Source: Candidatus Pacearchaeota archaeon
GTDB taxonomy: Archaea; Nanobdellota; Nanobdellia; Pacearchaeales; GW2011-AR1
Assembly: GCA_018304145.1 (NCBI GenBank)
Contig: JAGVWU010000012.1
Span: 1 to 32,830 of the forward strand
Reading direction: 5' to 3'
DNA: 32,830 nucleotides
The notes beneath the pieces were generated by a model. That model made no database searches, was not told the DNA's origin, and saw only the letters and a program-made list of their open reading frames with translations. Position 1 is the stretch's first letter. Each line of letters opens with the position of its first letter. The position numbers were made by a program, and so were the translations under genes. This document shows positions 3,107-26,318 of the stretch, in pieces.

Positions 3107-4528
3107 CTACAATCCTAGACTTTCAATGAACTCCTGTTTATTGAATAATTTTAAATCCTTGTATTCCTGCCCTGTTCCAAGATAAAATATTGGCTTATGG
3201 GTTGTGTGAGAGACTGAAATGATTGTTCCGCCTTTTTCATCAACATCCGCTTTTGTCAATATTGAACCATCAATATCTATCATATCATGAAAAGCTTTTG
3301 CCTGTTCTGTTGCATCATTGCCTGCAATTGATTCTGCAACGAAAATCTTTAAATCTGGATTAGTAACTTTGCAGATTTTTTTCATTTCATCAAGAAGATT
3401 GGATTTTGTATGCATTCTTCCTGCAGTGTCAATCAAAACAACATTTATTTTATGAGCCTGTGCATATTTTATTGCATCAAAACCAACTGCAGATGGGTCT
3501 GCTCCATAATCATGCTTGATTAAAGGTATGCCCAATCTTTTAGCGTGTTCTGAAATCTGTTCTATGGAAGCTGCACGAAAAGTGTCTGCTGCTGCAAGCA
3601 CAACTGAATAATTTTTAGATTTTAAAAGATGAGCGAACTTGGCTATGCTTGTTGTTTTTCCTGTTCCGTTAATTCCAAAAAACAAGATAACAAAAGGCTC
3701 TTTTTCTTTTTTCTTGAATTCAATCGCTTCAACAGGGTCGTCAGGATCTATTAATATTTCATTTAGAGAAGATTTAAGCTCTTTTTTTATTTCATATTCC
3801 AAATCCTTTTTTGGAATTTCTTGATTTATTAATTTTTTGGAAAGCTTATCTTTTATATCTTCTACAACTTCAAGAGCAACATTGTTTTCTAAAAGAAGCA
3901 TTTCTAAGTCATTGAACAATTCATTAAAATCATCTTCTGTAATTTTATAGATAAAATTGGATTTGATTTTTGTTAGGATTGATGACTTTTCAGGAGCTGG
4001 GGTAACAAATTCATGGATAGCAAGTTCTGATTCTCCTGAATCAGAAGATTCAATCTTTCTCTTTTTTCCAAAAAATTTGCCCACTCTTTTTAAGAATCCT
4101 TTTTCAGTTTTTTCATGCCCTTTTTCCAGTTCTTCAACTGCCTGTTCAGGAGTTTCTTCTCCTTTTTCAACTTTTGATGCTATTTCCTGGGCTTTTTCAT
4201 TTTCTTCTTGAACTCTTTTGACATCCTCCTTTGTTGCTAAGGTTTTTTCTTCTATTTCCTCTTTTATTTTTTCTACATCTGGTTCATATTTTTGAAGTCC
4301 TGGCTTGAATTCCAATGGAGCTTCTTTGATTTTCTGTTTTTTTGCCTTTTCTATTAGTTTATCTGCTTTTTCTCCTGTTTTTTTGCCTTTCTTTTTTGCT
4401 GATTTTTTAGGAGCAGCAAGTTCTGATTTTTCTAAATCAGAAGATTCAATATTTACTTTTTCAGTTTTCAGTTTATCTTTAGCAGAAGATACCCATTCTT
4501 TTAACTTGTCTTTAAGGAATCCGAACAT
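3107..4528 (-). CDS. ftsY: SRP receptor FtsY with long charged N-terminal region
   Basis: 473 aa; 'FFGINGTGKTTSIAKFA', 'AADTFRAASIEQ', 'DTAGRMHTKSNLLDEM'. Confidence 0.95.
   Translation of the reverse strand: MFGFLKDKLKEWVSSAKDKLKTEKVNIESSDLEKSELAAPKKSAKKKGKKTGEKADKLIEKAKKQKIKEAPLEFKPGLQKYEPDVEKIKEEIEEKTLATKEDVKRVQEENEKAQEIASKVEKGEETPEQAVEELEKGHEKTEKGFLKRVGKFFGKKRKIESSDSGESELAIHEFVTPAPEKSSILTKIKSNFIYKITEDDFNELFNDLEMLLLENNVALEVVEDIKDKLSKKLINQEIPKKDLEYEIKKELKSSLNEILIDPDDPVEAIEFKKKEKEPFVILFFGINGTGKTTSIAKFAHLLKSKNYSVVLAAADTFRAASIEQISEHAKRLGIPLIKHDYGADPSAVGFDAIKYAQAHKINVVLIDTAGRMHTKSNLLDEMKKICKVTNPDLKIFVAESIAGNDATEQAKAFHDMIDIDGSILTKADVDEKGGTIISVSHTTHKPIFYLGTGQEYKDLKLFNKQEFIESLGL
4017..4055 (-). 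repeat. Coding palindromic element B (in FtsY)
   Basis: + strand ATAGCAAG TTCTGATTC TCCT GAATCAGAA GATTCAATC. Confidence 0.85.
4413..4452 (-). repeat. Coding palindromic element A (in FtsY)
   Basis: + strand GCAGCAAG TTCTGATTT TTCT AAATCAGAA GATTCAATAT. Confidence 0.85.
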
Positions 4529-6523: not shown

Positions 6524-6715
6524 GAAAATATAATATGATAACCTACAATGAGGCAAACTTTCTTTGGAAAAGAAAGTTTGACAAATAAAAAGCATTTATC
6601 TATTTTAATTATATTTGTAAATGCTTTTTATTTCAAAGAATACCTTTTCCGAGAAAAGGTAAACCAAAATCTACTCCTTGTAGGAAGAAAATATAATATG
6701 ATAACCTACAATGAG
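6524..6715 (+). repeat. 29-bp direct repeat (6524-6552 and 6687-6715) flanking a hairpin array
   Basis: Both copies read GAAAATATAATATGATAACCTACAATGAG. Between them: CAAACTTTCTTT/AAAGAAAGTTTG (6554-6580), AAATAAAAAGCATTTA/TAAATGCTTTTTATTT (6583-6633), TACCTTTTC/GAAAAGGTA (6641-6661). Confidence 0.9.
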
Positions 6716-7258
6716 TTATACGATGCATTGAGAAAAGAGAGATATAGTGAGCAGCTTCAGCCAATGGCTAAGAATTTTATTAAAGAAGTTTCCGCTTATC
6801 TGAAAGATAAAAAAGAACTTGCTGAAAAGAAAGATGAGGATTTTTCAGAGGCTGTTTTGAAAACAAAAAAACAATTTGAAAACTCTCTCGCTATATTTAA
6901 GGAATTGATACTAAGAAGAAAGAAGAAAATTCTTGATTTGGCTTTTGTTGCTGCTGAAACAGGAATTTCCAAAAGAGATTTTGAGAATATGCTTGCTGTT
7001 GAAAAAGAATGTTTTGAAGGAATAATGAAATCTCTGGAAAAAGGAGATAAAAAAATCAGCGAGATGCTAAAAGGTTCTGAGGAGGATGAAAAAAAGAAAA
7101 ACAAGATGGTTGTTTTTATTGAAGATACTGATGAGTTCTTGGATTTAGAAAGGAACAAATTAGGGCCTTTTAAAAAAGGAGATGTTGCAAATATTGCAGA
7201 GGAGATTGCCAATATTCTGATTGTAGATAAGAAAGCAGAAGGGATTAGTGAGGAGTGA
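6698..7258 (+). CDS. Archaeal GINS subunit (Gins51-like); the supplied ORF starting at 6548 is extended upstream
   Basis: 'MITYNELYDALRKERYSEQLQPMAKNFIKEVSAYL' N-terminus; C-terminal 'VVFIEDTDEFLDLERNKLGPFKKGDVANIAEEIANILI'. Confidence 0.85.
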   Translation: MITYNELYDALRKERYSEQLQPMAKNFIKEVSAYLKDKKELAEKKDEDFSEAVLKTKKQFENSLAIFKELILRRKKKILDLAFVAAETGISKRDFENMLAVEKECFEGIMKSLEKGDKKISEMLKGSEEDEKKKNKMVVFIEDTDEFLDLERNKLGPFKKGDVANIAEEIANILIVDKKAEGISEE

Positions 7259-7611: not shown

Positions 7612-7705
7612 CCAAAAAGCAAAGCTTTTTTTGTAATCGAACCGAACCCTTTGATTAGATTCGGGACAGAGAAATTTAATTAATATTGCAAAGCAATATT
7701 AAAAA

Positions 7706-7778
7706 AGCCTGCGGCCGGAATCGAACCGACAACCTACAGTTTACAAAACTATTGCTCTACCGATTGAGCTACGCAGGC
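7706..7778 (-). tRNA. tRNA-Thr(TGT)
   Basis: Reverse complement GCCTGCGTAGCTCAATCGGTAGAGCAATAGTTTTGTAAACTGTAGGTTGTCGGTTCGATTCCGGCCGCAGGC folds as a cloverleaf; anticodon loop TTTGTAA. Confidence 0.95.
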
Positions 7779-7902
7779 TTAGGATTAAATGAAATAGAAC
7801 AATTGGTATTTAAAACTTATTGTTTCGAGATATTTTATTAATTTTAATGTATCCATAGTATAATATGCATACATTTAAATATGCTAATTATTTTAATCTT
7901 AA

Positions 7903-8886
7903 ATGAAAAGGAGAGTTTATTTTAAGTCAAGTAGAATTAGAAATTTATTCTTCGAAAAAGTTTTAAAAAGTCATAAATTTAATAAATGGAATCAAATTGT
8001 TTTAAATCTTAATATTCCTAGAATAGTATTAAGTAAGTATAGAAACGGAAAATTAACTATCCCTGAGCAGGTTTATAAAAATCTTATTAATAATTTTAAT
8101 GAGAAAGATAAATCTTATTTTCAAAACAATATTTCTTATTTAAATGAAAATTGGGGTATGGTTAATGGAGGCATGTCTACTTATTTTAAATATAAAAATA
8201 TATTTGATGAAGGAAGAAAAAAAGCAATTCAAAAAATAAAAGACTCTTCTATAAAATTTGATATAAATCTTTCTTTAACAAAAGATTTGGCTTATTTTAT
8301 TGGTTTATTTATTGGAGATGGATTTACAAACAAATATGGGTATCATTATATAGTGCAATTTACAGGAGATAGTAGAAAAGAAAAAAATTATTATTTAGAA
8401 ATTGTCTCCAATATTTCAAAAACACTTTTTAATTTAATTCCTAAAATAAAAGAAGAAAATAATTCAAATACTCTGAGAGTGAATTTTTATTCAAAAAATT
8501 TATTTTTATTAATAACTGAAAGGTTTAAAATTAAGGCTGGGAGAAAGAGTAGTATTGTTTTAATTTCTGAGGAAATTTTAAATTCAAATAAGGATATATT
8601 ATTATCATGTATTGCTGGTATTTATGATGCTGAAGGATGTTTTTATTTTGATAAAAGGAAACATTATAAAAATCCTTATCCAGTTATTGCTTTGCATATG
8701 AATAATCCTGTTTTGATAAAACAAATTTCCGATATTTTTATAAAAAATAATATAGAACATTCATTTACTTCTAATTATTCCACACTTTATATTTATGGAA
8801 AAAAGTTTGTGAATGATTTTTTATCTAAAATTAGTTTATTAAATCCAAAATATATGTCCAATATAGAGTTATTAAAAAACATTTAA
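7903..8886 (+). CDS. LAGLIDADG homing endonuclease, stand-alone, two motifs, with an N-terminal HTH-like region
   Basis: 'LAYFIGLFIGDGF' and 'LLSCIAGIYDAEGCF' are paired LAGLIDADG-type helices; N-terminal segment ends in 'NWGMVNGG'. Confidence 0.85.
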   Translation: MKRRVYFKSSRIRNLFFEKVLKSHKFNKWNQIVLNLNIPRIVLSKYRNGKLTIPEQVYKNLINNFNEKDKSYFQNNISYLNENWGMVNGGMSTYFKYKNIFDEGRKKAIQKIKDSSIKFDINLSLTKDLAYFIGLFIGDGFTNKYGYHYIVQFTGDSRKEKNYYLEIVSNISKTLFNLIPKIKEENNSNTLRVNFYSKNLFLLITERFKIKAGRKSSIVLISEEILNSNKDILLSCIAGIYDAEGCFYFDKRKHYKNPYPVIALHMNNPVLIKQISDIFIKNNIEHSFTSNYSTLYIYGKKFVNDFLSKISLLNPKYMSNIELLKNI

Positions 8887-9453: not shown

Positions 9454-10290
9454 TCAGTTTTCTTTTTTAGGTCTTCCTTTTTTTGGGATTGCAAGCTTGT
9501 TCGCTGACAAGGATTGAATATTTGATGCCTTTTCAGGCATTTTTTCTTGGATAGCAGGTTCATCTTCTGATGAAGATTGCCTTTTTGCAGCTTTTTCCTG
9601 TACTTCTTTTATTTCTTTTTCTGCTTTTTTTATTTTTTCATCCTCAATTTCTTTTAATTGGTCAATAACATCTTCTTCAATAATCTCTTTTTTAATTTCT
9701 TTTGGCTTTTCCTTTATTTTTGGTATTTCTTCTGAAGCTAATTTTCTTTTAATTTCAATAGTTCTTATTTCACATAAAGATAATGGATAGGTTTTTTTAA
9801 GCATCATAGATAAAGATTTTTGAAGCCTATTTGTCAGGATATCTTCAAAAATTTCCTTATTTTTTCTTTCAGAGATATAATCTTCAAGCCAATTTTTAGT
9901 TTTGTTTCTTAAAGTTTTTCTTACTGCCCTTGAAACTTTTTTTCTTGTTATTAAAAAAGGCTTTACAAGAATCATGTTTTCCTGACTTGGAGTTTCAAAG
10001 GAGTCTTCCACATAACTTATTCTTTTTCTTATCATTCTCCTTATAAAATAAGACATTAGTTTTATTTTTTCAGGATAAGCAGATGCCTTGTTATTTTCTA
10101 CATGAATTATAAAAGTTCCTTCAACACTTTTTCCTTTTAACTGCCTTGTTAAATCTAATTTGATTGTCCGGTTATTCAATTGTTCAGCAGAATCTGCAAT
10201 AAGCTCGATTTTTGCTTTAACAAAAAGCAATTCAACTGGAATGAATTTTCTTCTTTTTGTTACAAGTTTTGTTGTTTTTTCAGGCGGCAT
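9454..10290 (-). CDS. Ribosomal protein eS1 (S3Ae) with extended charged C-terminus
   Basis: 'GKSVEGTFIIHVENNKASAYPEKIKLMSYFIRRMIRKRISYVEDSFE' core, then a lysine/glutamate-rich tail. Confidence 0.9.
   Translation of the reverse strand: MPPEKTTKLVTKRRKFIPVELLFVKAKIELIADSAEQLNNRTIKLDLTRQLKGKSVEGTFIIHVENNKASAYPEKIKLMSYFIRRMIRKRISYVEDSFETPSQENMILVKPFLITRKKVSRAVRKTLRNKTKNWLEDYISERKNKEIFEDILTNRLQKSLSMMLKKTYPLSLCEIRTIEIKRKLASEEIPKIKEKPKEIKKEIIEEDVIDQLKEIEDEKIKKAEKEIKEVQEKAAKRQSSSEDEPAIQEKMPEKASNIQSLSANKLAIPKKGRPKKEN
9488..9522 (-). repeat. Coding palindromic element C (in eS1)
   Basis: + strand ATTGCAAG CTTGTT CGCT GACAAG GATTGAATATT. Confidence 0.75.
9551..9581 (-). repeat. Coding palindromic element D (in eS1)
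   Basis: + strand ATAGCAGG TTCATC TTCT GATGAA GATTGCC. Confidence 0.75.
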
Positions 10291-24055: not shown

Positions 24056-25000
24056 ACAAAAAGTATTTTAGTAATTTATTATAAGATTGAAAAATGCTTT
24101 TTGTTTGTGGTAATGAAAGCTAAAGAAAACCTATTCAGGTATTTTAATAATTTGAAAATTTATTTTAAAACTCACAAGTTAGTTTTTTGAGTTGGTTAAG
24201 TTTTGACAATTGAGGATAGAATTATGAACAGAAGCTTCACTTTTTCTTTTTACACACTAACAAGAAAAAAGAAATTTTTGGCTGTCAAAGATGACAAAGA
24301 TTTTAATAGAATATAAAGATGCCCTAGAGCCTGCTTTTTTGGAGGTTCACTTAAAATTTCAATAATTCTTACAAGAATAATGACAAGAATTTTAAATAAA
24401 TTTAATGCAAACTTCTGAAAATTTAAAAGAGGAAGACAAGGATGGCAAGTCCTTGTAAGATGTTTCAAGATTCTATAAAGAATTTGTATAAAATCCTGAA
24501 ATCAAGCCTTTTTCGTCCACCTCTTTGATATATAGAGATATATCAGATAAATTAAAACATAAAGAAATACTTAAAGATTTCTGTGATACAGAAAAAAGTT
24601 TCAAATTATTTAAAAAATATAATGTGGATTATGATTTAATACCTGCAACTATCAGTGAAAAATACTTCTATTATTGTTAATCATGCAACACAGCAGCTAA
24701 TCTGACATTGGGCAGGTATAGAGGTTAGATTTTTAATATTATAATGAACTAGTTATTTAGGATGTTTTTTATTCAGAGTAAAAAGAAAACTATATCTCTC
24801 AAGAATTTTTAATTTTTGACGACTATCAGGAATTTACATTCCTGAAGTTTTAAGATTTAGTTTAGATTACTTACTCTTTTTTACTCAATTTTTAATACCA
24901 TCTTTTATTTTAAGTTAAATTTGTAAGATGCTATTAAAAAGCTTCACAGATTAAAAGCATTTTTAGTAATTTATTATAAGATTGAAAATGCCTTTAATTT
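24056..25000. repeat. Two copies of a hairpin with conserved loop (about 24056-24108 and 24952-24997)
   Basis: Shared core TTTTAGTAATTTATTATAAGATTGAAAA between AAAAAGTA/AAAAGCA and TGCTTTTT/TGCCTTT arms. Confidence 0.8.
24492..24680 (+). pseudogene. Decayed ORF fragment
   Basis: NPEIKPFSSTSLIYRDISDKLKHKEILKDFCDTEKSFKLFKKYNVDYDLIPATISEKYFYYC* with protein-like composition, no start, and upstream same-frame fragments broken by stops. Confidence 0.35.
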
Positions 25001-25241: not shown

Positions 25242-26318
25242 ATGGTTGAAGTTCAAATTATAAAAAACAGAATAATAGAGGTGTTAAAAAGAAGAGGTCC
25301 GAGTCTGCCTATTCAAATAGCAGGTGAAATAAAACAGAACTCTATATTCACCTCCGCATTTTTATCAGAATTAGCTGATGAAAAAAAAATAAAAACAAGC
25401 GCTTTAATGGTCGGAGGCTCTCACTTATATCTTTTAGATGGGCAAGAAGACCAGCTGGAAAAATTCACTAAATATCTTCATCCAAAAGAAGCAGAAGCTT
25501 TTCTTTTGTTAAAAAATAACAAGATTTTGAAAGAATCTGAACAAGAGCCTGCAATAAGAGTTGCATTAAAGGAAATAAGAGATTTTGCAGAAAGCTTCAA
25601 AAATGACAATGATGTTTATTGGAAACTTATTCTCACATCAAATTCAGAAATAGAATCTCTTTTTCAGCAAAAATCAAGCAAACAGGAAATGGTTGAAGAG
25701 AAAGCAGAAAAAAAGGAGGAGAGAACAGAAATATCCAAACAAGAAAAAACAGCAAATGTCCAGCCTTTTAATTTACAAAAATCCGAATTTACTATTCAAG
25801 AGAAAATAACAGAGATACAAGAAAAAATAGAGCAAGAACTTACTGTCAAAGAAGAGCAAAACCCAGAAAAAATAAAAAAAGGGCAATCTTCTTTTTTGCA
25901 AAAAAATGAATTTACTGTAAGAAAAATAAAAAGGCCGAAAGAAATTGAAATCATGTTTGATAATCCTCTTGTTCAAAAGATAGAAAAACCAAAAAAAGAC
26001 AAGCCAAAATCAGAATTTGTTCTAAATGTAATAAAGTCTTTAGAAAAAATAAGCTTTAAAATAATTGAAGAAAAAGAGCATAAACTCAAAGAATATCTTG
26101 CATTAGTAGAAGTAAATTCACCTTTAGGCCCTATAATTTTTTTAACCCAAGCAAAAGATAAACAAACCATCAATGACTTGGATCTTCAAAAACTTCTTTC
26201 TGATGCTCAATCAATACCTCTTCCTGCATTAATGCTTTATACAGGAAATCTGACAAAAAAATCCATAGAGTATGCTGAAAAATACTCTTCTATATTAAAA
26301 ATCAAGAAAATTGAATAA
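25242..26318 (+). CDS. Hypothetical protein with N-terminal winged-helix-like region, charged linker and C-terminal domain
   Basis: 358 aa; 'IIEVLKRRGPSLPIQIAGEIKQNSIFTSAFLSELADEKKIKTS' is wHTH-like. Confidence 0.65.
   Translation: MVEVQIIKNRIIEVLKRRGPSLPIQIAGEIKQNSIFTSAFLSELADEKKIKTSALMVGGSHLYLLDGQEDQLEKFTKYLHPKEAEAFLLLKNNKILKESEQEPAIRVALKEIRDFAESFKNDNDVYWKLILTSNSEIESLFQQKSSKQEMVEEKAEKKEERTEISKQEKTANVQPFNLQKSEFTIQEKITEIQEKIEQELTVKEEQNPEKIKKGQSSFLQKNEFTVRKIKRPKEIEIMFDNPLVQKIEKPKKDKPKSEFVLNVIKSLEKISFKIIEEKEHKLKEYLALVEVNSPLGPIIFLTQAKDKQTINDLDLQKLLSDAQSIPLPALMLYTGNLTKKSIEYAEKYSSILKIKKIE
25761..25800 (+). repeat. Coding palindromic element F (strongly diverged, in the 358-aa ORF)
   Basis: CAGCC TTTTAATTT ACAA AAATCCGAA TTTACTATTCAAG; same 9-4-9 spacing, imperfect stem. 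Confidence 0.4.
25884..25920 (+). repeat. Coding palindromic element E (diverged, in the 358-aa ORF)
   Basis: CAATC TTCTTTTTT GCAA AAAAATGAA TTTACTGTAA; 9-4-9 layout, one stem mismatch. Confidence 0.55.

Follow-up and report, generated by a model that had tools for sequence, protein, structure and literature searches.

A likely RPE-like family of small in-frame palindromic elements confined to one genus of DPANN archaea

Two palindromes in the ftsY gene of a Candidatus Pacearchaeota archaeon are best read as members of a novel family of small, dispersed, in-frame palindromic insertion elements resembling the Rickettsia palindromic elements (RPEs), a reading to which we give a probability of about 0.7. 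The copies are dispersed, occur in some orthologous genes and are absent from others, include a clean insertion, show perfect arm pairing with double-sided changes, lie in both orientations and are restricted to one genus. The stretch of 32,830 nucleotides that holds the two palindromes is termed the window, and its source genome is G000. All genomes used are draft MAGs, the catalogue of copies is not exhaustive, and coding status was judged from open frames.

The exact site of FtsY copy A reads, on the minus strand, ATTGAATC-TTCTGATTT-AGAA-AAATCAGAA-CTTGCT (4415-4450) and that of copy B reads ATTGAATC-TTCTGATTC-AGGA-GAATCAGAA-CTTGCT (4019-4054). Both stems are perfect over 9 bp with loops of 4 nt, and the sole stem difference between the copies is compensatory (U-A / C-G). 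The preliminary description of the window had claimed two FtsY sites of shared architecture with perfect stems and a compensatory difference, which held when the exact sites were rechecked, and the peptides it gave for the two sites held as stated. Its proposal to align FtsY orthologues and see if the block is a clean insertion was met only in part, with similar palindromes found at other positions. The N-terminal linker of FtsY is hypervariable among the orthologues fetched from 29 relatives, and around the copies it is too variable to display a clean insertion, which GatA displays instead (see below); FtsY of the nearest genomes carries the same kind of unit elsewhere (one in G015, one in G012, at least two in G005 and one in G007). 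On aligning the seven FtsY seeds, the 9 pairs were found to be 100% paired, with double-sided change in four pairs and one-sided change in none. A flank pattern blind to the stem, ATTGAATC-N22-CTTGCT, matched only the two FtsY sites in the own genome, where the same pattern read backwards gave 0 matches; on 59 relatives the exact flank pattern gave, beyond the own genome, non-palindromic matches only.

Perfect inverted repeats of at least 9 bp with loops of 3-6 number 21 in the window (nested repeats counted separately) against 3.0 +/- 1.8 in dinucleotide shuffles. Since the window is richer in such repeats than its shuffles, being a palindrome does not by itself make a site in it unusual. What sets the FtsY palindromes apart in the window is their shared flanks together with the compensatory difference, and among the 21 repeats only these two have TTC...GAA ends. 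Scanning the window by the refined covariance model with filters off gave four clear copies and two weak ones (Table 1); it may be added that the strong copies belonged to the training set. An Rfam scan of the window returned tRNAs only.

Table 1. Host gene and palindromic elements located in the window
Feature	Position	Strand	Remarks
Host gene ftsY	3107..4528	-	Holds copies A and B
Palindromic element, FtsY copy A	4403..4456	-	Palindrome 4421-4442; peptide NIESSDLEKSELAAP; clear model match
Palindromic element, FtsY copy B	4007..4060	-	Palindrome 4025-4046; peptide KIESSDSGESELAIH; clear model match
Short-class element TTCATC-AGAA-GATGAA	9541..9588	-	C-terminal tail of S3Ae-like ribosomal protein; peptide RQSSSEDEPAIQEK
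Weak or decayed element CTTGT-CAGCGA-ACAAG	9478..9525	-	Same S3Ae-like tail; peptide IQSLSANKLAIPK; E about 0.02
Element with one stem mismatch	25875..25928	+	In ORF 25242-26318; peptide GQSSFLQKNEFTV; clear model match
Weak or decayed element	25752..25805	+	In ORF 25242-26318; peptide VQPFNLQKSEFTIQEK; E about 0.02

Some other features of the window were also noted. ORF 6548-7258 has at its start two inverted repeats (6556-6578 and 6641-6661), perfect over 9 to 10 bp and outside the palindrome family, and a 41-nt inverted repeat of 76% (6558-6598/6618-6658) lies in the same place. A 35-nt direct repeat, 91% identical (24066-24100 / 24961-24995), falls in the region of about 23.8-25.2 kb, which is without ORFs of 80 aa and without an Rfam match. 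ORF 7903-8886 on the plus strand, near tRNA-Thr (7705-7779), has LAGLIDADG-like motifs (IGLFIGDGF, GIYDAEGCF) and, judged from sequence alone, might encode a homing endonuclease.

A total of 94 copies were curated, of which 79 have perfect arms; 47 of these 79 have 9 bp with a 4-nt loop and 10 have the 8/6 arrangement; copies of a 16-nt class (6/4 or 5/6) are shorter overall by six nt, which equals two codons. The unit has the consensus GCAAATNTTGAAT[CT] + [TC]TC-N(3-7)-loop(mostly 4)-N'(3-7)-GA[AG] + CTTGCTATC, in which the outer left and right parts are the conserved flanks, the left one being missing in some copies. Inserts measure 33-50 nt and the conserved unit about 45-50 nt. With 47 copies in the alignment to the first model, pairing held for 97.5% of the stem cells, 90 cells showed double-sided changes as opposed to 2 one-sided, and G-U pairs made up only 2 of 408 stem cells. 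As this alignment was fitted to the structure, it is compared with slid controls, for which pairing falls to 14-59% (over both alignments); the pairing and the double-sided excess are far above both slid and shuffled controls. Also, a flank pattern blind to the stem returned palindromes in 5/5 cases in G000, 6/6 in G015 and 4/5 in G005, and therefore the model is not the source of the pairing. Strong covariation is also what would be seen if the hairpin were selected as an mRNA structure, with compensatory changes arising one side at a time. Yet G-U pairs, which RNA selection would tolerate, are almost missing, the copies occupy unrelated genes in both orientations and lie between genes too, and they are present in some orthologous genes and absent from others, so we regard this explanation as very unlikely.

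The hosts are housekeeping genes, several of them with charged linkers, and include FtsY, S15, L19e, S3Ae, GatA, GatC, GatE, CysRS, a ValRS/IleRS-like gene and Asp/Asn/Lys-type synthetases, and further TruB, Nre, deoxyhypusine synthase, primase and ScpB (S3Ae, GatC and GatE were identified by reading the sequence, by alignment or by structure match). The clean insertion is found in GatA of G000, where 33 nt (exactly 11 extra codons, peptide GANKEKASSFSYENEEIWELVK) are inserted in frame and 15 orthologues are without the insertion, including that of sister G015, which is 85% identical. One possible 4-bp target-site duplication, TCTC, is present at GatA; in the copies at large, direct repeats beside the palindrome were not enriched. 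The CysRS copy is present in G005, G012 and G007 only, the other aligned orthologues being empty, and the Nre copy in G005 only. In CysRS the net gain is just 3-10 codons, short of the 48 nt of the unit, and therefore some copies are not clean insertions. Comparison of GatE and CysRS with solved structures made an insertion plausible, though not clean, and the GatA orthologues were used in their place.

Of the 91 copies that were classified, about 18 are outside any ORF of 130 aa or more, some of them being intergenic. The other 73 divide into 31 forward and 42 reverse copies, and 66 of the 73 fall in two symmetric phases, where 47 would be expected if nothing but stop-free frames mattered. 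Of the remaining seven, four are in R0, and for at least some of these the palindrome edge had been called one base off; the true number of in-phase copies is probably higher than 66. The predicted peptide is hydrophilic, xSSDxxxxSELAI from forward and xASSxxxxxEDSKFA from reverse copies, mostly as single inserts of 11-16 residues. It could be supposed that a conserved linker peptide motif, SSDxxxSELAI, is what is maintained, the palindrome being a by-product of codon choice, since forward copies have the peptide in common and several hosts have charged linkers. But reverse copies give a different peptide, intergenic copies occur, and the variable interior, Ser wobble positions included, covaries almost perfectly, which all but rules out this explanation.

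The arms in all likelihood turn over faster than the flanks, though not universally. Copies with at least 85% flank identity have 0.50 of six interior arm bases in common, the same as unrelated copies, and their loops resemble one another more than the average (0.72 vs about 0.4); this comparison has 17 pairs, largely from one subfamily, which are not independent events. For GatC of the sister genomes G000 and G015, the site and the flanks (GATTCAAAATTTGCT and ATAGCnAGC) are common, with only 8/22 palindrome bases shared (counted by hand on the alignment), and yet other arms are present at the same site of the same gene in G012, G005 and G006. As read from the sequences, these GatC arms are perfect in G015 and G006 and have one mismatch in the others. 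The CysRS copies of three genomes keep similar arms, the arms in S15 of G015 are decayed, and mismatched stems are also seen in the ValRS/IleRS-like gene of G012 and G007. Such old common copies with mismatched stems show that arm correction is not universal. An alternative is that every insertion event builds its own arms, where the mover sets the conserved ends and the inner arms are fold-back copies of untemplated or captured bases, so that a copy would start out with a perfect palindrome of its own. In its favour, near-identical flanks bring no closer likeness of the arms than is seen between unrelated copies, and the loops are more alike. Against it, the GatC copies differ in their arms at what is apparently one ancestral site, which points to turnover after insertion, the CysRS arms stay similar, and the arm bases have no local source; we consider it unlikely. 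Separately, copying of arm bases from the own flanks or nearby host sequence was tried as a candidate and rejected, no convincing signal being found.

With covariance model R1, for which only FtsY copies were used as seeds, 18, 19, 28, 13, 6 and 6 copies were identified at E<=1 in G000, G005, G007, G015, G001 and G012 respectively, and 0 to 2 weak matches per genome outside the genus. For the refined model the search covered 21 genomes within the genus and 384 across the class, from 250 genera, and no convincing match was found across the about 250 other genera; the single match outside the genus has E = 0.0099 per genome and is below the number that chance predicts. The family is thus confined to one genus of DPANN archaea. 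In the tree, the copy-rich G000, G015, G012, G001 and G005 group with G014 at a FastTree support of 1.000, and G007 falls outside this clade. G014 has one good copy; about 17 model matches in it were left out, as they come from an intergenic repeat with near-identical copies, which resembles the model but is unrelated to the family. This repeat of about 200 nt (TTTCAAATCTGGGTTTAATACCCCGAGGCTCTGCCTCGG...GCCGGTCGCGAAGCG; L217-L227, many contigs) occurs at least 17 times, in many cases where a contig ends, and could possibly be a mobile or structured-RNA repeat. Several genes of G007 (L103-L119) hold many palindromes of the SESKDSE type, whose flanks are weaker, and these palindromes may represent a related but separate expansion. 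The preliminary description had proposed a covariance-model scan, which has given many copies in the own and related genomes and essentially none beyond the genus, and had held that absence of stem covariation would refute it, which is not borne out, the covariation being strong. Its reading of a mobile or expanding in-frame palindromic element, RPE-like in concept, is supported, with mobility itself inferred; the confinement to a genus and the faster change of arms than of flanks go beyond it.

The size of the elements, the hairpin beside a conserved short tag and a stem variability like that between subfamilies of GTAG/CGTC repeats (PMC3733652) might suggest that the elements are REP-like, with a Y1 (RAYT-type) transposase as their mover, and G000 has two Y1 genes. 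Against this, Y1_Tnp matches are absent in six copy-bearing draft genomes (G005, G015, G007, G012, G001, G010), many are present in G002, which has no copies, and the copies are mainly intragenic without the GTAG/CGTC tag, making this explanation very unlikely. REP or GTAG-CGTC repeats with RAYT are likewise 20-40 bp hairpins whose stem variants carry complementary changes (PMC3733652), but they are extragenic, tagged, frequent in G-T pairs and RAYT-linked, none of which is true of the archaeal family, and its flank consensus GCAAATNTTGAAT / CTTGCTATC is no terminal GTAG or CGTC. PARCEL (PMC2996958) is also palindromic DNA read as protein and spread within genomes; it consists, however, of tandem 25-residue amphipathic repeats in surface ORFs, whereas the archaeal elements are single short hydrophilic inserts in housekeeping proteins. 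The archaeal family is therefore likely to be neither a REP/RAYT repeat nor PARCEL, and it is not a shown MITE. Nematomorpha mitochondria also have perfect inverted repeats in coding sequence, with an arm-conversion or template-switch mechanism proposed (PMC6649704); there the arms, up to 284 bp, encode native conserved protein, in contrast to a short dispersed inserted unit with common flanks.

The closest likeness is to RPEs, which are small palindromic repeats in frame in unrelated housekeeping genes, are translated, have empty orthologues and are distributed at the genus level (PMC10969869). The archaeal palindromes too are in frame in unrelated protein genes and absent from orthologues (GatA, Nre, CysRS). 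They differ in their archaeal host and in size, about 33-50 nt, which is below the RPE range of 100-150 nt (RPEs are about 150 nt); also, RPEs lose arm identity over time (PMC6649704), whereas most archaeal copies keep perfect arms whose sequence varies by copy. The likeness is functional, and no homology to described RPE families is established. In-frame mobile palindromes in essential genes are best known from Rickettsia. To our knowledge there is no archaeal case, and no archaeal precedent was found described in the literature, most subscription journals being outside the search.

In the RPE-like reading that we prefer, copies would enter in either orientation, mostly within genes, and would be translated as a short hydrophilic peptide, and the persisting ones would be those at surface-tolerant places, in the phase open on both strands. 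Their spread in one DPANN genus would take place via unidentified trans-acting machinery; no transposase or other candidate for the mover was found. As the arms can fold back, template switching during replication (quasi-palindrome correction) would probably transfer a mutation from one arm to the other or undo it, and in consequence arms would change fast and in concert, with the flanks and the palindromic form staying. Template switching in replication has been proposed for hairpins generally (PMC8794818), and arms that change together with hardly any G-U states agree with it. Mobility is inferred because the copies are dispersed and present or absent among orthologues; no transposition event or enzyme was seen. 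The trans-acting mover, translation, template switching and selfish nature are inferences as well, without expression data. A bolder reading, which we offer only as a possibility, is a parasite defined by form, with short conserved ends and arms ever rewritten as a matched pair by fold-back synthesis, so that its inheritance may be limited to the ability to form a hairpin.

Arm-to-arm sequence copying is an open question in hairpin evolution, and GatC-type sites, with intact flanks and rewritten yet matching arms across sisters, provide a natural record of it. If translated as inferred, the elements would give ribosomal proteins, tRNA synthetases and the SRP receptor of these reduced genomes extra short peptides.
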